Part shown: one piece after another, positions 14,770 through 28,605 of the stretch
Layout of the letters: each line of letters opens with the position of its first letter
How positions within the stretch are numbered: the first letter of the stretch is position 1
Source of the DNA: a virus
IMG/VR virus record: IMGVR_UViG_3300048437_000177
Location: 1 to 36,821 of that record
Reading direction: 5' to 3' (one strand)
Length of the DNA: 36,821 nt
Notes under the pieces: generated by a model
Database searches by the model: none
Seen by the model: the letters and a program-made list of their open reading frames with translations, nothing else
Told to the model about the DNA's origin: nothing
Made by a program: the position numbers and the translations under genes

Positions 14770-14786
14770 GACAACCCTAGGTTGTC
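14770..14786. promoter_or_regulatory. Repressor-type operator O2 (integrase promoter)
   Basis: GACAACCCTAGGTTGTC has 7-base perfect arms. It lies 48 bases upstream of the integrase GTG, with GATAAT (14795-14800) just downstream as a possible -10. Binding here would shut integrase transcription. A relaxed relative, GATAACCCTAGGTTTATC, is at 14556-14573. Confidence 0.7.
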
Positions 14787-15877: not shown

Positions 15878-16081
15878 TTAAGTTGTAATTTGGCGCAAAC
15901 CTTCGTCGCGCTTGGCGGCGAAGTAGGCCTCCACGACTTTACGATCCGCCACGCGCTGACGCCCCAGCTTGTAAGTGGGGCAGCAGAACCTTTCGCTGGA
16001 GATCGCGTTCAACAGACTGCTCTTCTTCATGCCGAAGAGAGCAGACAGCTCTGTCAAATCGAGATACGGTTTTTCCATCAT
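15878..16081 (-). CDS. Excisionase/AlpA-like DNA-binding protein (67 aa)
   Basis: The 67-residue protein has a winged-helix-type pattern: LDLTELSALFGMKKSSLLNAI forms the helix-turn-helix, and CPTYKLGRQRVADRKVVEAYF the wing and final helix, as in Xis/AlpA/MerR-like DNA-binding proteins. Its gene lies between integrase and repressor, the usual place of an excisionase. The ATG overlaps the repressor stop (ATGA), and the end of the repressor gene supplies the GGAGG site. It therefore shares the leftward transcript and is translationally coupled to the repressor. A transcription factor role is the alternative. Confidence 0.7.
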   Translation of the reverse strand: MMEKPYLDLTELSALFGMKKSSLLNAISSERFCCPTYKLGRQRVADRKVVEAYFAAKRDEGLRQITT

Positions 16082-16731
16082 GCCTCCAAGAACTTTCTAA
16101 TTTTCGTACCACCAACCGAGTAGTTGTTCCCGCGTGCGCTTTTCTCAAACCGCAGGACTAGCTCCCTTCCCGAGAGCTTGCCGTGCTTTTTCCAGATATC
16201 TTCGTCGATCTCAAGAGCGTCCATCATCGCGCTACGCTGCGTTTGGTACTCCGCAACCACCGCCACAGTCACCCCGGCGTTCTTCTGCGGCTCGGAGAAC
16301 TTAACCTCGTAAACGCCTTCGCTGGGGCGTTCTGCCATCTCAACACTGACCCTGAGCAGCTTGCCGCCATCAATCAGCGTAATGTCATCGATGGCCTCTT
16401 CGTCGCTAAAGGTTGCGCCCTTTCCAGCGCCAACGACGTAGGTCATCACAGCGTAGACGCAGGCCTTGTGGCGTCTCGCCAACCTTATGTCTACCTCAAT
16501 CTCGCCATGAGCGGTGCCTAGCATGAGCCACGAGTGCTTAACGCCGAGCAGTGTAGCGAGCCGCTTCGACATCGCCGCCCTCGGCACAGTCTCCCCCGCG
16601 AGCCACTTCCTGACAGCCTCTTGGCTGACATTTAATCTCGCGGCTATCGCAGTCTGCTGACCCTTTCCGTAATCTGGTATTTCATCGCTTGCGTTACATG
16701 CTTCCAGCAAGCGGGTTGCAAAGTTGTTCAA
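16078..16731 (-). CDS. Helix-turn-helix phage repressor (CI-like), TTG start
   Basis: I chose a TTG start at 16731, five bases after an AGGGGG site, giving 217 aa. The ATG further upstream (16995) would run through the helicase gene. Residues about 22-70 form a helix-turn-helix domain (GQQTAIAARLNVSQEAVRKW, LATLLGVKHSWLMLG). The C-terminal 140 residues do not show the Ser-Lys peptidase dyad of LexA/CI-type repressors and are unfamiliar (KVRFSEPQKN-like VKFSEPQKNAGVTVAVV, then KKHGKLSGRELVLRFE). It has its own promoter and two operators. It is the probable master repressor of the dispersed operator set. Confidence 0.8.
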   Translation of the reverse strand: MNNFATRLLEACNASDEIPDYGKGQQTAIAARLNVSQEAVRKWLAGETVPRAAMSKRLATLLGVKHSWLMLGTAHGEIEVDIRLARRHKACVYAVMTYVVGAGKGATFSDEEAIDDITLIDGGKLLRVSVEMAERPSEGVYEVKFSEPQKNAGVTVAVVAEYQTQRSAMMDALEIDEDIWKKHGKLSGRELVLRFEKSARGNNYSVGGTKIRKFLEA

Positions 16732-16748
16732 AACAACCCCCTGTTGTA
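16732..16748. promoter_or_regulatory. Operator O3 overlapping the repressor ribosome binding site
   Basis: AACAACCCCCTGTTGTA contains ACAAC and GTTGT around a 5-base centre. It ends one base before the TTG start codon of the repressor. On the minus strand its CCCCC centre reads as the GGGGG of the Shine-Dalgarno sequence, so operator and ribosome binding site are the same bases. Binding would block the 5' end of the repressor gene (negative autoregulation). Confidence 0.7.
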
Positions 16749-16763
16749 AGTGAATGGAGACTG

Positions 16764-16792
16764 ATAGTAAACCGACTACTTTAACTTGTCTA
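16764..16792 (-). promoter_or_regulatory. Repressor promoter
   Basis: On the minus strand, TAGACA (16792-16787), a 17-base spacer and TACTAT (16769-16764) form a fair sigma-70 promoter pointing at the repressor. The start of transcription would be near 16757. Operator O4 overlaps its -35 and O3 lies in the leader. Confidence 0.55.
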
Positions 16793-16807
16793 CAACTTTT
16801 AATTGTT
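16791..16807. promoter_or_regulatory. Operator O4 at the repressor promoter
   Basis: TACAACTTTTAATTGTT keeps the ACAA-N7-TTGT core and overlaps the -35 of the repressor promoter and the last codons of the helicase gene. With O3 it gives two sites bracketing the promoter. Confidence 0.6.
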
Positions 16808-18151
16808 TCGCATTGCGTCCACAAACGTAAGCAACTTACTTTGGGCTTCGTCTTTTCCTGAGAGCACGTCCCTGACCAACAAGTCGGCTGGGGTGTCTGC
16901 CAGAATATGTATGACGCGCACCGGGCGCGTTTGCCCCTGACGATGCAGGCGTGCATTGAACTGCTGGTAAAGCTCCAACGACCAAGATAAGCCAAACCAT
17001 ACGATCAAAGATCCGCCATGTTGCAGGTTCAGCCCGTGCCCGGCACTGGCGGGGTGCGCCAGCATTACCGAAACCTGCCCCTTGTTCCACTTGTCGATCA
17101 GGGTTGCATCTTTTTTCAGCACCACCGCGCCCTTGATCGCCTGACAAATCCTTTCGGCATCAGACTGAAAGTTGTAGGCTATCAGCACCGGCTCGTTGGA
17201 AGCCTCGACGATCTCCTTCAGCGCCTCGATCTTGGCGTCGTGGAGAACCTCGTAGCCGTCCTCGGTGTAGAGCGACCCAGAGCTGACTTGCAGGAGCTTG
17301 TTGATCTTCACCGCCGCGTTAGCTGCAAGCACCTCGCCCTGCTCCAGCTCTATCAGGAATTCATCTTGCATCTGTTTATATGCTTTCTGGGCCTTGGGCG
17401 GCAGTGTCACCACAACGTCGCTGTCGATTCGCTGCGGCAGTTCGAGGTAATCGTCTGCGTCCATGCGTAGCACCAGATCGGCCACCCTCTCCTGCAACAG
17501 ATCAACGCGATCAGGTCTGACTTCATACTGCGACCATTGGGGGTTGCCGACTTGGCGGCAGTAGGTTTCGAGGAACTTGCCCCGGGTGTCGCCTAACCGC
17601 TTACCTTTGTCGAGGAGGTATATCTGCGGCCACAGCTCCATCAGGCTGTTGGGTGCCGGTGTCCCGGTGAGCTGCACCATCCGCTTGATGCTTCCCGCCT
17701 TCACCACCTGACGCAGCGCCTTCCACCGCTGGCTGCTGTGACTTTTGAAGCTGCTGCTTTCGTCGATTACTACGGCGTCGTAGTGCCACTCGCGCTGCAA
17801 AGCGTTTACCAACCACGGTACGTTCTCCCTATTGATGATGTGTATGGGTGCCGAGGAGTGCATCGCCTCCTCGCGCTTGGCGGGGCTGAGTCCCGCTATG
17901 ACAGAGAACCGCAGCGCCCGTAGGTGCTGCCAGTTTTTTATTTCGGCAGGCCATGTGTGTTGCGCCACGCGCAACGGGGCGATGATCAGCACCTTCTTAA
18001 TGTCCTTGGTGACCAGTAGATCGACCAGCGCCGTGAGTGTGCTGACGGTCTTGCCGAGTCCCATGTCTACCCACAGCGCCGAGTGGCTATTGTCTTTGAT
18101 GAACTGCGCGGCCCGGAGCTGGTACTGGTGAAGGTCTGTGTGCTTTAGAAT
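16799..18151 (-). CDS. SNF2-family DNA helicase/translocase, possible ATT start
   Basis: The helicase motifs are complete: I DMGLGKT, II VIDESSSF, III LTGTPAPNSL, V SAGHGLNLQHGG, VI NARLHRQGQTRPV. Upstream of the first ATG (18064, within motif I) the frame continues as KHTDLHQYQLRAAQFIKDNS, the expected Q-motif helix, so the true start is further up. No ATG, GTG or TTG exists between the frame's stop at about 18178 and motif I. The best candidate is ATT at 18151, seven bases after AGGGGA; this gives 450 aa. The gene follows VRR-NUC, a usual partner in phage replication modules. Confidence 0.85.
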   Translation of the reverse strand: MLKHTDLHQYQLRAAQFIKDNSHSALWVDMGLGKTVSTLTALVDLLVTKDIKKVLIIAPLRVAQHTWPAEIKNWQHLRALRFSVIAGLSPAKREEAMHSSAPIHIINRENVPWLVNALQREWHYDAVVIDESSSFKSHSSQRWKALRQVVKAGSIKRMVQLTGTPAPNSLMELWPQIYLLDKGKRLGDTRGKFLETYCRQVGNPQWSQYEVRPDRVDLLQERVADLVLRMDADDYLELPQRIDSDVVVTLPPKAQKAYKQMQDEFLIELEQGEVLAANAAVKINKLLQVSSGSLYTEDGYEVLHDAKIEALKEIVEASNEPVLIAYNFQSDAERICQAIKGAVVLKKDATLIDKWNKGQVSVMLAHPASAGHGLNLQHGGSLIVWFGLSWSLELYQQFNARLHRQGQTRPVRVIHILADTPADLLVRDVLSGKDEAQSKLLTFVDAMRNN

Positions 18152-22479: not shown

Positions 22480-24738
22480 ATGTTAGATCAATTTGGCCAT
22501 CGCCTCGTCGAGCGGGGCTACAACATTATTCCAATCCTGCCGGGTAAGAAGAGACCTCCCGGTAACGATTGGCAGAAGATTCAAAGCACACCAGAGTTGG
22601 TAACAAGCTGGATCAATGAGATGCCGCAGTTCGGCATCGGCGTTCTGGCCTCCACTACCTGCGCGGTTGACATCGACTGCCGGGACAAGGCCGTCAACAA
22701 TAAGCTGCTGCACTGGCTGAAGAACAATGTCGGTCTCGGTGCCATTCGGATCGGTGAGAACCCCAAGTGCGTTGTCCCGTTCCAGAACGTCGAGCGGTTT
22801 AAGAAGATGAAGTCGTGCGAGTTCAAGACACCAGACGGTGTCACGCAGGCCGTTGAGATTCTGGGCCATGGGCAGCAGTGGGTCGCATACGGGATTCACC
22901 CCAAGACGATCAAGCCATACGAGTGGGTCAGCGGCCCAACGCTCGCCGACGTGTTTTACGATGACCTGCCGGAGCTGACGCAGGAGTTGGCGATGGCATT
23001 CATCGGATACTTCGAGGAGGTGGCCCGGGATCTGGGCTGGGAGGAGGTGCGACCCGGGAGCCAGCAGAAGGCCGAAGAGGCCGACGCGCTGATGAACCTC
23101 AAGGCCGCTCTGGACATGGACGCCGAGGAGATTGCAGCGATCCTGCGAGACCTCGATCCAGACGATCACCACGACAACTGGGTGAAAGTCGGCATGGCCC
23201 TGCACCACCAGTTTGGTGGCGAGCCGGAGGGCTTACAGCTCTGGGACGATTGGTCTGTCGAGGGATCAAAGTATCAGGAGGGTGAGTGCGCCAAGCGGTG
23301 GCTGTCCTTCGGTGATTACCAAGGGGCGCAGGTCACGATGGCCTCGCTAAAGTTCGAGGCAAAAAAGTCCGAGAGCGTCGAGCTGGTCGCTGACGAGTTA
23401 CCCACCATGCTAGAGCGGTGGGCGTTCGTTCAGGTAGAAGGCTCGGCGCGGGTTCTGCGGGAGGAGCTAAACTCCGAGCAGATCATCCTCTACAAGATCG
23501 AAGACCTGAAGAAAGAGTTCGCCAACCGAAAGGTGCTAGATCCCGGCAGCGACAAGCCGCGCATGGTGAACCTTGTAGACCTGTGGCTTGAGCACCCAGA
23601 CCGGCGCACATACGCGGCAGGCATCTGCTTCGCCCCGGACTCCGAGGTGCTACAGAGATACAACTTATGGCGAGGCTGGAGCTTCAAGGCCGTGCAGGGC
23701 GAGGTGCAGCCGTTCACCGACTTCGTGACCAACGTGATCGCTTCCGGGAACGAGGAGCACGCCAGATATATTCTTGGCTGGGTGGCGCAGATGATCCAGA
23801 AGCCGCAGTCCAAGGTCGGTGTGGGGCTGGTGCTCCGAGGCTCTAAGGGGTCAGGCAAGACTTTCTTTGGCGAGCTGGTCGGTGGGCTTTGCAAGGCGCA
23901 CCACCGCATCGTGTCCAAGGCCGAGCACGTCACCGGCAAGTTCAACCGGCACCTTGAGGACACCCTGCTGCTGCAATGCGACGAGGCATATTGGGCCAGA
24001 AACAAGGCAGCCGAGGGTGCGCTCAAGGATCTGCTGACCAATGGCCGGATCACCGTCGAGCGCAAGGGTATGGACTCGTACTCTTCTGCCAACTACACCC
24101 GGCTGCTGTTCAGCTCCAACGAGGAGTGGGTGGTGCCTGCGTCTCTGGACGAGCGCCGCTTTGCTATCTTCGACGTGTCGAACGTCAGGCAGCAGGACGC
24201 CAAATACTTTGGAGCGCTGAGGCGCTGGTATGACCGGGGAGGTGCCGAGCATCTGCTGCACTTCTTCAAGCACTTTGACCTGAATACCGTCGATGTCCGT
24301 CAGGCTCCGAGGACTGCCGCGCTCGATGAGCAGAAGCTGCACTCGCTGGACTCGGTGGATCAGTGGGTTATGGATTGCATCGGGTCGGGTGAGTTCCGTG
24401 AGCAGCGCACTAACGGCGAGGTGTTCGAGTTCGCCAAGTTCGAGCCTAAAAATTCGATCTACCAGACCTATGTGTCCAGCGTGAAGGGTCGATTTGAGAA
24501 CGCACGCAAGGAGTCGCAGTTCTGGAAGCACCTGCACGAGATCGATGGCCTGATCGCGGGAGAGAAACGCTCCCGGGTAGGTCACCGGCAGGTTCGCTTT
24601 GTTCAGTTCGTGATCCCAGAGCTGGCGCTCAAGGCATTTAACGCGCACCACAACATCGACAGCAACGTGATGATCGAGGCAGCCGAGGAGCTAGACCCGC
24701 TCGACCCAGCAAATTGGGACGACGAGGCACCTTTTTAG
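22480..24738 (+). CDS. NrS-1-like primase-polymerase/helicase
   Basis: This 752-aa protein has three parts. Residues about 1-190 are a Prim-Pol (AEP-type) domain, with the acidic metal site in AVDIDC (about 62-67) and GHGQQWVAYGIHPKT (about 130-145). About 210-300 is a PriCT-2-like region (DLDPDDHHDNWVKVGMALHHQF). About 390-600 is a DUF5906/SF3-type helicase: Walker A GSKGSGKT (about 453-460), LLLQCDEAYW as Walker B, and SSNEEWVVPASLDERRFAIFD as arginine-finger region. It resembles the deep-sea phage NrS-1 enzyme, which primes and copies DNA. It would start forks for the family A polymerase encoded leftward. Confidence 0.9.
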   Translation: MLDQFGHRLVERGYNIIPILPGKKRPPGNDWQKIQSTPELVTSWINEMPQFGIGVLASTTCAVDIDCRDKAVNNKLLHWLKNNVGLGAIRIGENPKCVVPFQNVERFKKMKSCEFKTPDGVTQAVEILGHGQQWVAYGIHPKTIKPYEWVSGPTLADVFYDDLPELTQELAMAFIGYFEEVARDLGWEEVRPGSQQKAEEADALMNLKAALDMDAEEIAAILRDLDPDDHHDNWVKVGMALHHQFGGEPEGLQLWDDWSVEGSKYQEGECAKRWLSFGDYQGAQVTMASLKFEAKKSESVELVADELPTMLERWAFVQVEGSARVLREELNSEQIILYKIEDLKKEFANRKVLDPGSDKPRMVNLVDLWLEHPDRRTYAAGICFAPDSEVLQRYNLWRGWSFKAVQGEVQPFTDFVTNVIASGNEEHARYILGWVAQMIQKPQSKVGVGLVLRGSKGSGKTFFGELVGGLCKAHHRIVSKAEHVTGKFNRHLEDTLLLQCDEAYWARNKAAEGALKDLLTNGRITVERKGMDSYSSANYTRLLFSSNEEWVVPASLDERRFAIFDVSNVRQQDAKYFGALRRWYDRGGAEHLLHFFKHFDLNTVDVRQAPRTAALDEQKLHSLDSVDQWVMDCIGSGEFREQRTNGEVFEFAKFEPKNSIYQTYVSSVKGRFENARKESQFWKHLHEIDGLIAGEKRSRVGHRQVRFVQFVIPELALKAFNAHHNIDSNVMIEAAEELDPLDPANWDDEAPF

Positions 24739-24753
24739 CTACAATTTCACGCC

Positions 24754-25227
24754 ATGAATACCAAAATCTGCGTCGTTTGCGGGGAGGAAAAAACGACGGC
24801 GCGGTTCTACAAGCGGCCAGATGGTTCTGTCGAGAACACCTGCCGCCCTTGCAGGACTCGCGCCGAATTCAAAACACAACACAACAGCCCACGGGACTAC
24901 CTGCGGAACACGCTCGCCAAGGCGAAGTTCGGTGCCAAGAAGCGCAACCTAGCCTTTGCGCTGGACATCGATCAAGTCATGAAGATCTGGGACGAGCAGC
25001 GCGGACGCTGCGCCCTGAGCGGTGTGCTCATGCAGGCCGCAAAGGACGGTAAGGGCCGCAAGGGCAAGGACTTGAACGTGTCTCTGGATCGCATAGATCA
25101 GGACAAGGGCTACCTCTTCACCCCCCGGAACGTACAGCTTGTCTGCCTGCGCGTAAATTTAATGAAGCACGACATGAATGAAGCAGACCTCTACTGGTGG
25201 TGCCAAAACATCCTCGACCATAAATAA
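24754..25227 (+). CDS. HNH-type nuclease with N-terminal zinc knuckle (157 aa)
   Basis: The N-terminal 35 residues have two Cys pairs (CVVC and CRPC), a zinc-binding treble-clef-like motif. The C-terminal half has RCALSG, NVSLDRIDQDKGY and NVQLVCLRVNLMKHD, the order of elements in HNH/endonuclease-VII-like proteins, with the Asp-Arg-Ile-Asp and a later Asn and Lys. It may be a recombination or homing-type endonuclease. No Shine-Dalgarno sequence precedes the ATG; a TACAAT at 24740-24745 is close enough that a leaderless transcript is possible but speculative. Confidence 0.75.
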   Translation: MNTKICVVCGEEKTTARFYKRPDGSVENTCRPCRTRAEFKTQHNSPRDYLRNTLAKAKFGAKKRNLAFALDIDQVMKIWDEQRGRCALSGVLMQAAKDGKGRKGKDLNVSLDRIDQDKGYLFTPRNVQLVCLRVNLMKHDMNEADLYWWCQNILDHK

Positions 25228-25230
25228 AAA

Positions 25231-25269
25231 GACAACTTAGTGTTGTCTGGTCAAATATCGTGTGATAGT
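25231..25269 (+). promoter_or_regulatory. Operator O6 and promoter of the first small-gene cassette
   Basis: GACAACTTAGTGTTGTC (25231-25247) is a perfect operator. It overlaps TTGTCT (25243-25248) as -35; GATAGT (25264-25269) preceded by TG at 25261 fits an extended -10 with 15-base spacing. The first gene starts at 25310. The same -35-inside-operator design is used at 26806. Confidence 0.65.
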
Positions 25270-25309
25270 TTGTCAGCGGTTTTGCACTATAGAAAATCAA
25301 GGAGTAACG

Positions 25310-25549
25310 ATGCAGCAAGGAAGTATGCAATCTGAAATAGGCTTCGATCACGTCACCGAGGTTATCATCCCGGTACTCGGCGTCATGGTAAAAATCACGC
25401 CGGTAGCAGAGCACGCCGACGGCAGCGAGGACTTTGTCCTCAGCGTGGCTGATCAGGACACCGGGGACATTTTCAAGACCATTGAGTCGCAAGACTTAAA
25501 GGATTTAATTGAGCGCCAGCATCGATTGGTGCAGGCCTTCAGCCAGTGA
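25310..25549 (+). CDS. Small acidic early protein (79 aa)
   Basis: I use the ATG at 25310 with its GGAG site; a longer frame from 25262 would begin within the promoter. The 79-residue product is acidic: VTEVIIPVLGVMVKITPVAE, then DGSEDFVLSVADQDTGDI and a Leu/Lys helix (LKDLIERQHRLVQAFSQ). It is not recognised. It is the only gene before the structured untranslated stretch and starts a repressor-controlled unit, so a role early in lytic growth is likely. Confidence 0.6.
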   Translation: MQQGSMQSEIGFDHVTEVIIPVLGVMVKITPVAEHADGSEDFVLSVADQDTGDIFKTIESQDLKDLIERQHRLVQAFSQ

Positions 25550-25703
25550 AGGAAGGGAGGCATCTCCGGCAGGGGGGCAGCGGCCTCAGTCTGAGCTGGT
25601 TACACATAACCAGACGTGAAATAGGATCGATGAGCGAGGGCAGCCTCCCGTTATCACAACGCCCCAATCGATCCACACCGCTGCACTAAATTACAACTCA
25701 ACG
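25550..25703 (+). ncRNA. Untranslated stretch with several inverted repeats: candidate structured RNA
   Basis: No gene is seen in these 154 bases. Perfect hairpin CTGGTTA-CACA-TAACCAG is at 25596-25613. GGATCGAT (25624-25631) pairs with ATCGATCC (25667-25674), enclosing a GAGG-GCAG-CCTC stem. GGGAGGC (25555-25561) could pair with GCCTCCC (25643-25649), in competition with that inner stem. It lies inside the unit driven by the promoter at 25243. It could be a leader, a small RNA or a processing site. Confidence 0.4.
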
Positions 25704-25708
25704 ATGTG
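25692..25708. promoter_or_regulatory. Weak operator-like site at the start of the HTH gene
   Basis: TACAACTCAACGATGTG has a perfect left half and a 4-of-5 right half (GATGT for GTTGT). It covers the first ATG of the following gene. It is listed as weak. Confidence 0.3.
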
Positions 25709-25985
25709 GAGACGACTATTGAGTGATTTATTCTATAAGGCAACCCGGGTGGTCATGGATGGCCGACTGGGCCGCATGTTCACCGGGCCAAGGGCCAAGG
25801 GCGCGAGCACGCGCATACGGCTAGACCAAGATCCACGGATCGTCGAGGGCATCGTGTCCGGCAGCCGCAAGGGCCAATCGCCTCAGCAGATCGCCAACGC
25901 GCTGGGCATCTCGCCCTCCTCGGTCATCAAGGTAAGGGGGCTGTTCCGGGAGCGGTGGTCGGGCTACATGGAGGAGCAGACATGA
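25704..25985 (+). CDS. Small helix-turn-helix protein (93 aa)
   Basis: The C-terminal half has a homeodomain-like helix-turn-helix: VEGIVSGSRKGQSPQQIANA followed by LGISPSSVIKVRGLFRERW, about residues 50-86. The N-terminal part is basic. The ATG at 25704 has no ribosome binding site; TTG at 25719, seven bases after GGAG, is an alternative start (88 aa). It may regulate middle or late genes, since no other late regulator is evident. The stop overlaps the next start (ATGA). Confidence 0.6.
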   Translation: MWRRLLSDLFYKATRVVMDGRLGRMFTGPRAKGASTRIRLDQDPRIVEGIVSGSRKGQSPQQIANALGISPSSVIKVRGLFRERWSGYMEEQT

Positions 25986-26158
25986 AGACATTATTGGCAT
26001 TGGCGCTGACAACGCTGGCGATTGCGGGGCTTGGCACCGCAGGCACCGCAGACTTTGAGGACGCCAAGGCCTCTGAGGCGGCCTACTGCGAGAGAGTCAT
26101 CGAAGGCACGCATACCGACTACCTGAAACTGGGGGGTGTCTGCTATGACCGTGACTGA
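25982..26158 (+). CDS. Small secreted/periplasmic protein (58 aa)
   Basis: The ATG at 25982 overlaps the preceding stop and has a GGAGGAG site. The product has a clean signal peptide (MKTLLALALTTLAIAGLGTAGTA) with likely cleavage after an Ala-rich region, and a mature part of about 35 residues with two Cys (AAYCERVIEG, GGVCYDRD), perhaps a disulphide. A periplasmic small protein in an early phage cassette suggests an envelope-directed function, such as exclusion. That is inference. Confidence 0.6.
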   Translation: MKTLLALALTTLAIAGLGTAGTADFEDAKASEAAYCERVIEGTHTDYLKLGGVCYDRD

Positions 26159-26324
26159 TTTCCTGTGCGACAAGTGCAGCAAGCTCTGCGACGTGATCGA
26201 GGAGGTGTCAATCGACATGGAGCCTTACGGCGACCAGTACGTCGAGCGACGCACATACGAGTACTGGTCTATCTGCTGCCGCGCAGGCGTCGAGGTGCTG
26301 GAGACCGAGGAGATCGTCCATTGA
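26145..26324 (+). CDS. Small Cys-rich (zinc-ribbon-like) protein (59 aa)
   Basis: I use ATG 26145 rather than GTG 26136 because it lies eight bases from a GGGGGG site. The product has CDKC near residue 8 and a CC near residue 44 (YWSICCRAGVEV), with a further Cys at LCDV, a zinc-binding pattern. Size is 59 aa. The stop overlaps the next gene as TTGA. Function unknown. Confidence 0.55.
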   Translation: MTVTDFLCDKCSKLCDVIEEVSIDMEPYGDQYVERRTYEYWSICCRAGVEVLETEEIVH

Positions 26325-26539
26325 GGCCGTCAAGCAACCCGGACAAGGAGGCGCAGAGGCGTGAAAGCGCAGAGGCGTTGGCGAAGTACCTAGAGCAAGG
26401 CGGCACCATAACCGTGGCCGACACCAGTCACTACAGGCGTGAGGCCGGTACGCTGTCCCGGGATCAGGTGGTGCGGACATTCGCCTACCAGTCCCAGATC
26501 GGCAAGATCAAGAAGGAGGCAAAGAATGAAGACCGTTGA
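26321..26539 (+). CDS. Small basic protein, TTG start (72 aa)
   Basis: The 72-residue protein starts at TTG in a TTGA overlap, with GAGGAG eight bases upstream. It is rich in Arg, Glu and Lys: NPDKEAQRRESAEALAKYLE, then GTITVADTSHYRREAG, and SRDQVVRTFAYQSQIGKIKK. The pattern suggests two helices and a small wing; DNA binding is possible. The end overlaps the next gene by 14 bases. An in-frame start further upstream runs over the previous gene and is rejected. Confidence 0.5.
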   Translation: MRPSSNPDKEAQRRESAEALAKYLEQGGTITVADTSHYRREAGTLSRDQVVRTFAYQSQIGKIKKEAKNEDR

Positions 26540-26768
26540 TGACCCGAGCCGCTCGGACGGCTCGACAGCCAGCTATTACCAGCTCCCGGGTGGTGCCGAC
26601 GAGCTACAGCACCTGATCAGCTACAAGAACATGAACGCCCAGATCGGTGAGATATTCAGGAGCTGCTACCGCTACGGGGAGTCATCCCACAGCGACCAGC
26701 TCCGGGACGCGAAGAAGATAAAGTTCTATATCGACGCCGAGATATCAAGGCTCCAAAGCCCCTTCTAA
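26526..26768 (+). CDS. DUF3310-like protein (80 aa)
   Basis: The ATG at 26526 follows a perfect AGGAGG. Residues about 15-75 read SYYQLPGGADELQHLISYKN, then MNAQIGEIFRSCYRYGE and SDQLRDAKKIKFYIDAEISRL. This order (YYxLP-ELqdLI, IGnIfrxcYRxG, DlkKixxY) matches DUF3310 proteins of phages, which are of unknown biochemical role (sometimes annotated nucleotide kinases). The stop codon is part of the terminator hairpin that follows. Confidence 0.75.
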   Translation: MKTVDDPSRSDGSTASYYQLPGGADELQHLISYKNMNAQIGEIFRSCYRYGESSHSDQLRDAKKIKFYIDAEISRLQSPF

Positions 26769-26782
26769 GGGGCTTTTTTTTT
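26755..26782 (+). terminator. Rho-independent terminator
   Basis: AAAGCCCCTT (26755-26764), loop CT, AAGGGGC (26767-26773) and a run of nine Ts form a strong intrinsic terminator. The upstream stop codon TAA lies in the stem. It ends the first small-gene cassette. Confidence 0.9.
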
Positions 26783-26805
26783 GCCTGAATTATTTTCCTT
26801 GTATC

Positions 26806-26845
26806 GACAACTTTTAGTTGTCTCTACTACCGAAGTGCGTATAAT
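26806..26845 (+). promoter_or_regulatory. Operator O7 and promoter of the second small-gene cassette
   Basis: GACAACTTTTAGTTGTC (26806-26822) overlaps TTGTCT (26818-26823) as -35; TATAAT (26840-26845) is a perfect -10 at 16-base spacing. Transcription would begin near 26852, with the first gene at 26875. A bound repressor would cover the -35. Confidence 0.8.
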
Positions 26846-26874
26846 TGACCCCATCAACAACAACGGAGATAGAC

Positions 26875-27168
26875 ATGGACAGCAGCAAAACAATCGACCA
26901 AATCATTGCCGAAGTAGCTGCGAATTTAGAATCCGAAAAAGACTTGCTCAAGCAATTTAGCTTCAAGAAAGGGTCTTGGTACACAGGCTATGAAGTCAAA
27001 GCAAACGGATATTTTGAAGGCTTGAATTTTTGGATGGTGCGCTTCGAGAAAGATGGGGCAGGCTGGGTAGCCTTCCCAATATCGGAGCGCCAAGTCACCG
27101 AACCAAAGCGGTTTGAAACATTGCATGAAGCCAAAATCAACATCTTGAAAAATGCAGAGGCCGCGTAA
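26875..27168 (+). CDS. Unknown cassette protein (97 aa)
   Basis: ATG 26875 follows a CGGAGAT site downstream of promoter 26818-26845. The 97-residue protein starts with an acidic helix (IDQIIAEVAANLESEKDLLKQ), then has strands rich in aromatics (GSWYTGYEVKANGYFEG, NFWMVRFEKDGAGWVAFPIS) and ends with a short helix. No family is recognised. The compact alpha-beta pattern could be a small host-inhibiting or accessory protein. It has its own promoter, operator and, after the next gene, terminator. Confidence 0.6.
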   Translation: MDSSKTIDQIIAEVAANLESEKDLLKQFSFKKGSWYTGYEVKANGYFEGLNFWMVRFEKDGAGWVAFPISERQVTEPKRFETLHEAKINILKNAEAA

Positions 27169-27186
27169 GCGGCCCGGGAGGAAGGT

Positions 27187-27477
27187 ATGCAAGCAGCAGC
27201 AACAGGCAAAAACGTAAAGCACTACCTACAGGCCGTATCGCCGCGGGACGTGCTGACAAACAAGCGGTACAAGGTGTTAGGCACCCCGCTCAAGGATTGG
27301 CTGGTGTGCAGCCAGTGTCGTAGGCAGCAGGTACACCACGCCCAAAACGGCGGCGAGTTCCAGAGCAAGTGCTGGCACTGCGACGCTGACCACACCAACT
27401 TTTTGTACATGGATGAGCTGGCCCGGGAGCTGATCAAGGACGAGCGGTACGAGAACCTGTACCGATTCAAGCGATAA
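27187..27477 (+). CDS. Zinc-ribbon protein (96 aa)
   Basis: The 96-residue protein has a zinc ribbon with CSQC (about 41-44) and CWHC (about 62-65) separated by about 17 residues, within SCQCRRQ-like and KCWHCDADH. The rest is helical and charged (LARELIKDERYENLYRFKR). A GGAGG site precedes the ATG. It shares the second cassette with the gene before it. It may bind nucleic acid or protein; not recognised further. Confidence 0.6.
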   Translation: MQAAATGKNVKHYLQAVSPRDVLTNKRYKVLGTPLKDWLVCSQCRRQQVHHAQNGGEFQSKCWHCDADHTNFLYMDELARELIKDERYENLYRFKR

Positions 27478-27502
27478 CAGGCCGTTGAGGCTTTGAGGCG
27501 TG

Positions 27503-27527
27503 AAGGGGCTACGGCCCCTTTTCTTTT
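27503..27527 (+). terminator. Rho-independent terminator with TACG loop
   Basis: AAGGGGC (27503-27509), loop TACG and GCCCCTT (27514-27520) form a perfect stem, followed by TTCTTTT. TACG is a stable tetraloop. It closes the second cassette. Confidence 0.85.
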
Positions 27528-27820: not shown

Positions 27821-27884
27821 CACCCGGCAACTTCAATTAAATCAATGACTTAGGTGCTCCAGAGCGTGTCAGCCGTGCCGGGTG
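27821..27884. repeat. 9-bp inverted repeat pair, same core
   Basis: CACCCGGCA (27821-27829) and TGCCGGGTG (27876-27884) repeat the core of the pair at 27568-27618 in opposite order, 46 bases apart. The ATCAATGACTTA element (27841-27852) is between them. Four copies of one 9-mer in 315 bases suggest a protein-binding array, perhaps for the small terminase. Confidence 0.7.
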
Positions 27885-28366: not shown

Positions 28367-28605
28367 TGCGGTTGTCAGGTATAACCCGTCGCCTAGGTAG
28401 GACGGGGGCTGACGGTCACCTTGGTACAGTTGTAGCTGTACCGCGTCATCGGCGCTAGAAAAACGTCAATGATATCAATGACTTACGAATCTCGATGCCG
28501 TCAAGGTTCTGGGGGGCGATCCGGGTCAGATCGGCTTCGCAAATCCGGGACTCCGCTGTGGGGCGGCTACGGGGGGTATATCGAGATACACACTGAGGGC
28601 GGTTT
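28367..28605 (+). other. Gap between terminase genes with two hairpins
   Basis: No gene is seen in these 239 bases. CCCGTC (28385-28390) pairs with GACGGG (28401-28406) and GGTACAG (28423-28429) with CTGTACC (28436-28442). The element ATCAATGACTTA is at 28474-28485, preceded by GTCAATGAT. G-rich runs occur near 28510-28590. Neither hairpin has a T tract, so I do not call a terminator. A cos/pac element or a translational control is possible. Confidence 0.45.

Follow-up and report, generated by a model that had tools for sequence, protein, structure and literature searches.

In an environmental phage genome, terminators at 26755 and 27503 enclose an operator, a promoter and two small genes (here G1 and G2), and a first-pass annotation regarded the whole as a single insulated, repressor-controlled accessory module which may be exchanged among phages at fixed borders. 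The question posed by this locus is whether genes are indeed exchanged here and, if so, which segment moves and where its borders lie. The window referred to throughout is the whole stretch of DNA analysed, a 36.8-kb virus record (IMGVR_UViG_3300048437_000177, positions 1 to 36,821). Judging by its gene content, it appears to be a temperate phage, with genes for a tyrosine integrase, an HTH repressor-like protein, PolA, an SSB-like protein and a primase, as well as the small and large terminase, the portal and the major head protein. The large terminase has its nearest matches in Aeromonas phage LAh_8 and similar. A 24-nt repeat AACTTCAATTAAATCAATGACTTA, with copies that are 88% alike (27829-27852 and 28462-28485), brackets the small terminase gene and is possibly a packaging or regulatory site.

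Control signals and genes of the interval

The two terminators, the operator, the promoter and both small genes proved to be real, with the second terminator placed at 27502-27521. The intrinsic terminator of the upstream gene (26755-26782, plus strand) has a stem-loop of nine pairs (26755-26776, -14.0 kcal/mol) and a run of nine T, three of which lie inside the stem, and its T-tract is common to the promoter module that comes after it. The TAA stop codon of the upstream gene (26766-26768) overlaps the loop of this terminator, a feature absent from the first-pass annotation. By reading, the terminator was found at the same place in the loci L066, L128 and L149, with TGA as the stop in the equivalent loop in the first two and TAG in the third. 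The terminator 3′ of G1 and G2 (27502-27521, plus strand) is a stem-loop of eight pairs followed by a T-tract.

The operator palindrome GACAACTTTTAGTTGTC (26806-26822) overlaps the -35 box of the promoter, which suggests repression. At up to three mismatches it has nine sites in the window against 1.33 expected, a number reached in none of 100 shuffles. Copies adjoin the repressor-like gene, which is encoded within 16078-16995 (copies at 16774 and 16791), and precede a Cro-like gene (21996) and a small gene (25231), with a further operator-like site at 14770. As the operator recurs at other control sites of the phage, the module is probably part of the regulon that this phage controls with its own repressor, in agreement with the control originally proposed. 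The sigma-70-type promoter, TTGTCT-16-TATAAT (26818-26845, plus strand), had been described as near-perfect; this holds for its -10 box, but is somewhat generous for the -35 box (4/6) and for the total of 10/12 consensus matches. Taken as classes, promoter-like sites in the window are not above chance (6 against 6.9 expected) and terminator-like sites show a mild excess (26 against 17.4). Support for these particular signals comes from their conserved position in L128 and L149 and, in L066, from that of the terminator and operator.

G1 (26875-27168, plus strand) encodes 97 aa and G2 (27187-27477, plus strand) 96 aa, the sizes originally given. The alpha-beta fold proposed for G1 agrees with a predicted alpha-beta-alpha model of helix, antiparallel sheet and helix, the best of five models having a pLDDT of 85 and the other four 58-69. 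For G2, the four cysteines C41, C44, C62 and C65, invariant across nine aligned sequences, fit the zinc ribbon suggested for it, although the structural model is weak (pLDDT 78). No trustworthy match was obtained for either protein in Pfam, PHROG, NCBIfam or PADLOC, the best being to phrog_3972, a family of unknown function (E 0.0086). Likewise, there was no convincing match among PDB sequences, none by Foldseek with an E-value of 0.001 or lower, and no relative by tblastn against the phages collection.

The stop-codon hairpin and the leader

G1 ends in an 18-nt hairpin (GAGGCCGCGTAAGCGGCC, 27157-27174, plus strand), also overlooked in the first-pass annotation, which can be written as GAGGCCGCG-TAA-GCGGCC and holds the G1 stop codon UAA (27166-27168) inside its tetraloop. 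The core, GGCCGC-GUAA-GCGGCC (27159-27174), folds as a six-pair GC stem with a GNRA-type loop, the 18-mer having a predicted energy of -12.7 kcal/mol. The hairpin also codes for the C-terminal residues of its ORF, usually EAA, and it would form the 3′ joint of the cassette.

The exact 18-mer was found in at least 119 IMG/VR stretches, and the same stem with the loop ATAA, in which the last codon is changed synonymously, in 63. The same stem occurs with the non-stop loop GCAA in 12 stretches and with the TGA-containing loop GTGA in 7, some of the latter apparently real. With identical contexts removed, as was done ahead of all junction, copy, family and unique-leader counts, 103 of the 108 unique GTAA copies in the fetched loci terminate an ORF of at least 50 aa, as do 41 of the 49 unique ATAA copies, and 78 of those 103 are followed within 60 nt by a Shine-Dalgarno-like site and a start. 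A collection of cellular genomes (one per species, 84,980 bacterial and archaeal species) gave 65 stretches with the 18-mer; of 66 unique copies, 34 lie at the end of an ORF and 10 have a start signal behind. By reading, L149 is the sole clear cassette-type case among these, and it carries homologues of genes of the window phage. That the hairpin is a chance palindrome is ruled out by the loop controls (GCAA, GTGA) and the cellular collection.

The 204 unique ORFs ending in the hairpin have a median length of 86 aa and fall into 91 families, 52 of them singletons, some of which, in GC-rich contigs, may be due to chance. Each of 38 hairpin-bearing records has just one to three hairpins; these genes occur as single or few cassettes and not in long arrays. 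Other small genes finish in this hairpin as well, in L002, L003, L004 and L006 (the loop having an A in L003 and L004) and in L007 and L013, which are close relatives of the phage. A search of Rfam with E up to 1 gave two matches, each far under its gathering score. The hairpin region was matched by 27 records of the phages collection, all of them short matches except for phage C72C1 (L198), which matches over 26 bp at 96% and in which the hairpin ends a hypothetical gene. In this phage (17289-17873), CDS0029 has the 18-mer hairpin at its end, CDS0030 has a GGGGC-ATAA-GCCCC hairpin there, and CDS0028 and the pair CDS0029/CDS0030 lie on the plus strand amid minus-strand genes.

Genes on the two sides of the hairpin change partners. 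Among 26 upstream families with at least two junctions, 19 have a different downstream family each time (for example 9/9, 8/8 and 7/7), while seven show a repeated partner at least once, giving 83 distinct partners over 90 junctions; the G1 family has five partners at six junctions. When pairs of junctions with the same upstream family were compared, the downstream family was shared in 4 of 62 pairs at hairpins against 593 of 1003 at the remaining same-strand junctions of these loci (Fisher 1.7e-17, the pairs not being independent). The ORF caller behind this count recovered 69 hairpin junctions, and direct pairing gave 128 with a downstream ORF. With sizes matched (upstream up to 200 aa, downstream up to 300 aa) the counts are 3/53 and 257/486, and control junctions with an upstream gene of up to 200 aa and a gap of 5-60 nt share the downstream family in 21 of 38 pairs. 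When each family is counted once, all partners differ in 10 of 14 hairpin families (45 junctions, 41 distinct partners) against 37 of 149 control families (528 junctions, 276 partners), with p 0.0007.

The borders of the exchanged segments are sharp. In 63 stop-aligned pairs which share the upstream gene but not the downstream one, identity is 1.00 from the stop codon through +7 and, with positions counted from the T of TAA, falls to 0.84 at +8, 0.70 at +9 and 0.25 at +10, only four further pairs sharing both sides; the shared DNA stops within one base of the end of the hairpin. Conversely, in 39 pairs which share the downstream gene but differ upstream (four more sharing both sides), the 26 nt ahead of the start codon (-26 to -1) keep an identity of 0.67-0.95, which falls at about -27 to -32, the position at which, with the usual spacing, the preceding hairpin starts. 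From this start-aligned profile, the linker with its ribosome-binding site belongs to the following gene, and it is within the hairpin that partners change. In the window this linker, with the Shine-Dalgarno sequence GGAGG, lies at 27175-27186 (plus strand) and is part of G2 by the alignments of shared downstream genes; at hairpin junctions generally, the next start lies 11-85 nt past the stop. The G/A base of the loop is concordant in 97 of 116 upstream-gene pairs and 50 of 59 downstream-gene pairs, against a baseline of 0.60, and since it tracks both genes alike, the crossover point within the hairpin could not be placed. The homology of G1 to the contigs L002-L005, which have little else in common with the window, runs from 26846-26859, just past the -10 box, to 27173-27175, the end of the hairpin.

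The 5′ border of G1 carries a leader, CATCAACAACAACGGAG (26852-26868, plus strand), which from the leader scans would be the 5′ joint and ribosome-binding site of a first cassette. Leaders of the type CATCAACAACGGAG were seen after the -10 box in no fewer than four visibly distinct promoters. In loci picked by the hairpin, 29 of 35 unique copies lead into a hairpin-ended ORF. A scan of IMG/VR by the leader alone, blind to the hairpin, gave 27 stretches, in 23 of which the next ORF ends in the core hairpin; the comparison rate is 139 of 7365 open frames of at least 60 codons in the hairpin loci, many of which frames are not genes. Among loci not found before, 11 of 12 ORFs were hairpin-ended and the twelfth (L282) has one mismatch. 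Two of the four ORFs without a core hairpin at their end (L021 and L120) have the hairpin slightly past the stop. The 27 leader-hit proteins, not reduced for redundancy, form 12 clusters, nine of them with the hairpin and the G1 family included.

The reading preferred here, with a probability of roughly 0.6, is that of a system of cassette exchange among phages in which hairpin and leader are the recombination joints. The borders at base resolution, the new pairings at the hairpin and the replacement at the locus described below are direct observations. G1 (26852-27175) would accordingly belong to a large pool of portable gene cassettes of phages, each consisting of a ribosome-binding site, one small ORF and the 18-nt hairpin with the stop in its tetraloop, and the first cassette of a run would be placed behind the leader CATCAACAACGGAG, after the -10 box of any promoter that the phage uses. 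With the phage operator on this promoter in the window, cargo genes should be silent in the lysogen and expressed during the lytic phase. Since hairpin and leader are alike between unrelated cassettes, we infer that recombination between phages joins cassettes at these two sites, leaving the reading frames intact. The hairpin is probably an RNA element also, acting as a cistron separator where a Shine-Dalgarno sequence lies behind it and, it is proposed, as a terminator together with the T-tract of a following promoter module.

It should be mentioned that an 18-bp identity is short for homologous recombination. A rather unlikely reading is that the hairpin is an RNA element only, serving as stop context, intercistronic spacer, mRNA 3′ protection or half-terminator, and that selection keeps it at gene ends while the genes are moved by illegitimate recombination, the hairpin itself being no joint. 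The stable fold with its GNRA loop and the terminator-like arrangement where a T-tract follows agree with this, and a few other stems also hold a stop in the loop, with 10 stop-in-tetraloop hairpins of other stems against 3.9 expected at the same 7365 frame ends leaving room for a pure RNA role. The stem sequence, however, dominates, there being 139 core hairpins to those 10, although loci picked by the core inflate the 139. Moreover, the GTGA variant, which provides both a stop and a GNRA loop, is rare, and the outermost pair is not kept by compensation: 63 copies other than the scanned 18-mers have G-C in 24, A-C in 14, G-T in 9, T-C in 6 and others in 10, with no covariation of the outer stem seen. 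As most loci were retrieved through the exact 18-mer, they give no measure of how invariant those bases are.

Recombination route and comparison with known systems

No recombinase common to the carriers was found among the three families searched, PF00589, ERF and the integron integrases, in 39 records picked mostly by length from more than 200 loci and in many cases fragments. A PF00589 tyrosine integrase is present in 9 of these, ERF in 1, PolA in 6 and an Enc34-type SSB in 5; the record behind L149 is a whole bacterial bin, and its integrase and PolA matches are not phage evidence. The annotation of C72C1 includes a Sak-like annealing protein. With carriers so diverse and no common enzyme among the families tried, the simplest assumption is general recombination or template switching. 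Exchange between cassettes would then rely on annealing at short homologies or on template switching, carried out by enzymes of phage or host.

That a dedicated site-specific recombinase or hairpin-processing enzyme, encoded by phage or host, joins the cassettes as IntI does at attC is considered improbable. Borders that are exact to the base and fall on a folded palindrome at the ends of genes would suit such an enzyme, as would the 91 cargo families, but none is common to the 39 carrier records with three families searched, 30 of the 39 are without a tyrosine integrase (many being fragments), and the hairpin site has no integron core motif by eye. Integron cassettes consist of a single ORF with a folded attC at the 3′ end, plugged in behind a resident promoter, and the attC cores read RYYYAAC/GTTRRRY. 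The genes described here resemble these in having one ORF, a folded 3′ site and a resident promoter ahead, but the site is unlike attC in being 18 nt long with a nearly fixed sequence, and neither GTT nor AAC was seen by eye in 27150-27190. The integron integrase model TIGR02249 was over the cut-off in none of the 39 records, with weak sub-cut-off matches in 7, and the integrase of the window scored 14 bits against a cut-off of 265. On these integrase results in the 39 records and the window, identification as an integron cassette was rejected. Phage morons and the module-boundary sequences of lambdoid phages offer another comparison, morons being accessory genes with their own promoter and terminator among core genes. 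The interval is moron-like in having both and in a base composition unlike that of its neighbours (GC 0.44 in 26777-27175 against 0.60 upstream); we know of no stop-overlapping joint common to many cargo families in morons or at lambdoid boundaries.

Closer in kind are the promoter-early stem-loops (PeSL) of T4-like phages (Arbiol, 2010; Comeau, 2014; via PMC4503421), which, as summarized in the latter source, lie between variable phage genes and are reported to shuffle genes between related phages, and which a title cited there calls composite promoter-terminator motifs. A conserved stem-loop between small variable genes is seen here too. Unlike PeSL as represented in that summary, the present hairpin holds the stop codon and the promoter module is separate from it, the succession of hairpin, T-tract and promoter being found in few loci only, against 78 of 108 copies with a Shine-Dalgarno-like site and start. 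The window phage is also not T4-like by gene content, the window alone having been typed. In Cluster K mycobacteriophages, PMC3203893 describes SAS/ESAS, short repeats at the translation signals of some non-structural genes; SAS is a 13-bp repeat GGGATAGGAGCCC at start codons with 11-19 copies per genome in one phage cluster, about half of them with inverted repeats (PMC3203893). As in that account of SAS, a short repeat is tied here to the translation signals of a subset of genes, but it lies at stops, in one to three copies per record, in varied phages and with partners swapped. On reading 26840-27190, the motif GGGATAGGAGCCC was found ahead of neither the G1 nor the G2 start. No description of a stop-codon hairpin joint was found in the open-access papers searched. 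The hairpin is taken here as a variant of a kind already known, namely conserved intergenic motifs tied to modular phage shuffling.

Exchange at this locus and the cassette cargo

In L066 the large terminase, portal and major head protein are 100% identical (rounded) to those of the window, and its DNA equals that of the window at 96% over 26273 to 26830, comprising the upstream gene, terminator and operator. Between the promoter region and G2 it then has two hairpin cassettes different from G1 (92 and 71 aa), followed by the hairpin with a diverged G2 (76% in DNA), an extra 76-aa gene and the second terminator, which with its flank matches the window at 91%. Genes have thus been replaced at this locus between near-identical phages, which bears out the proposal of an exchanged accessory module. 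L128 equals the window at 89% over 24501 to 26861 and continues with yet other cassettes, and in the window-type contigs L023 and L211 this same linker leads into a different gene, which replaces G2. L007 and L013 have cassettes and G2 after the gene at 24754 instead. At the latter place the window has a second operator and promoter-like site with one 79-aa gene but no hairpin (25231-25549), and it is here that L007 and L013 carry cassettes. G1 was not found in the analysed stretches of the close relatives L007, L013 and L066, so that conservation of exactly these two genes as core replication genes in all relatives is not seen.

The borders of exchange are fixed, as had been proposed, but they are not the two terminators, and the notion of a two-gene unit did not stand, G1 being shared alone from the leader after the -10 box to its own hairpin. 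G2 sits behind hairpin cassettes in six window-type contigs (the window, L007, L013, L055, L066 and L149) and, on sequence grounds, is a unit separate from G1. A terminator-to-terminator insulated module in which both genes move together may be dismissed as very improbable, as L066 keeps both terminators while its interior changes at the promoter region and the hairpin, and relatives of G1 and of G2 form disjoint sets of contigs in every relative found, though the contigs are partly fragments.

A 22-bp direct repeat ACAGGCCGTTGAGGCTTTGAGG flanks the extra 76-aa gene of L066 (reverse strand, 1436-1457 and 1711-1732), and the window has a single copy after G2 (27477-27498) which resembles an empty insertion site and would represent a second type of joint. 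In L149 the hairpin, a T-tract, operator and promoter follow in succession, the last three being homologous to those of the window, and L007 has the same order with a GTGA loop. L225 has hairpin, T-tract, promoter and leader in succession, and L019, L256 and L261 look similar. Directly behind the hairpin and T-tract, these four loci have a similar TTTATTTGCA-type sequence, which suggests a second promoter and repressor family over the same cassette pool. In L007 (8539-9710) the operator-promoter block is duplicated, each copy starting its own cassette run, and an apparent broken cassette with a GTGA stop hairpin and T6 lies ahead of the second copy.

Representatives of 82 of the 91 cargo families were scanned, nine being left out as chance-like or long core genes. 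At most nine of the 82 match Pfam, including the cassette of L235, an ArdC-like antirestriction protein (E 1.9e-23 and 5.7e-43), with DUF723 and MUG113 (L273), DUF932 (L062) and AlpA (one) among the others. The PHROG matches are single ones to endonucleases and excisionase-like regulators together with many function-less families, and no representative matched PADLOC (0/82). The cargo probably consists of small early host-takeover or counter-defence proteins. A counter-defence role, suggested earlier for G1 and G2, is plausible given the ArdC-like protein of one other cassette, but neither has a PADLOC, NCBIfam or confident fold match.

A tentative extension of the preferred reading is a dedicated shuffling system common to unrelated phages, with hairpin and leader as matched joints selected for exchange itself. 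In that case, phages would draw on a common pool of plug-in early genes, those for counter-defence included, and the genes would work in any recipient because the stop, the spacing, half of a terminator and the ribosome-binding site are contained in the joints. If cassette exchange at hairpin and leader is right, an 18-base signature would mark exchangeable accessory genes across many environmental phages, and would provide a direct handle for gathering small early phage proteins of unknown function as candidates for host takeover or counter-defence. The design would be compact, with a single hairpin providing the stop codon, the spacing between cistrons, half of a terminator and the joint between genes, and the origin of phage mosaicism at gene borders would become testable.
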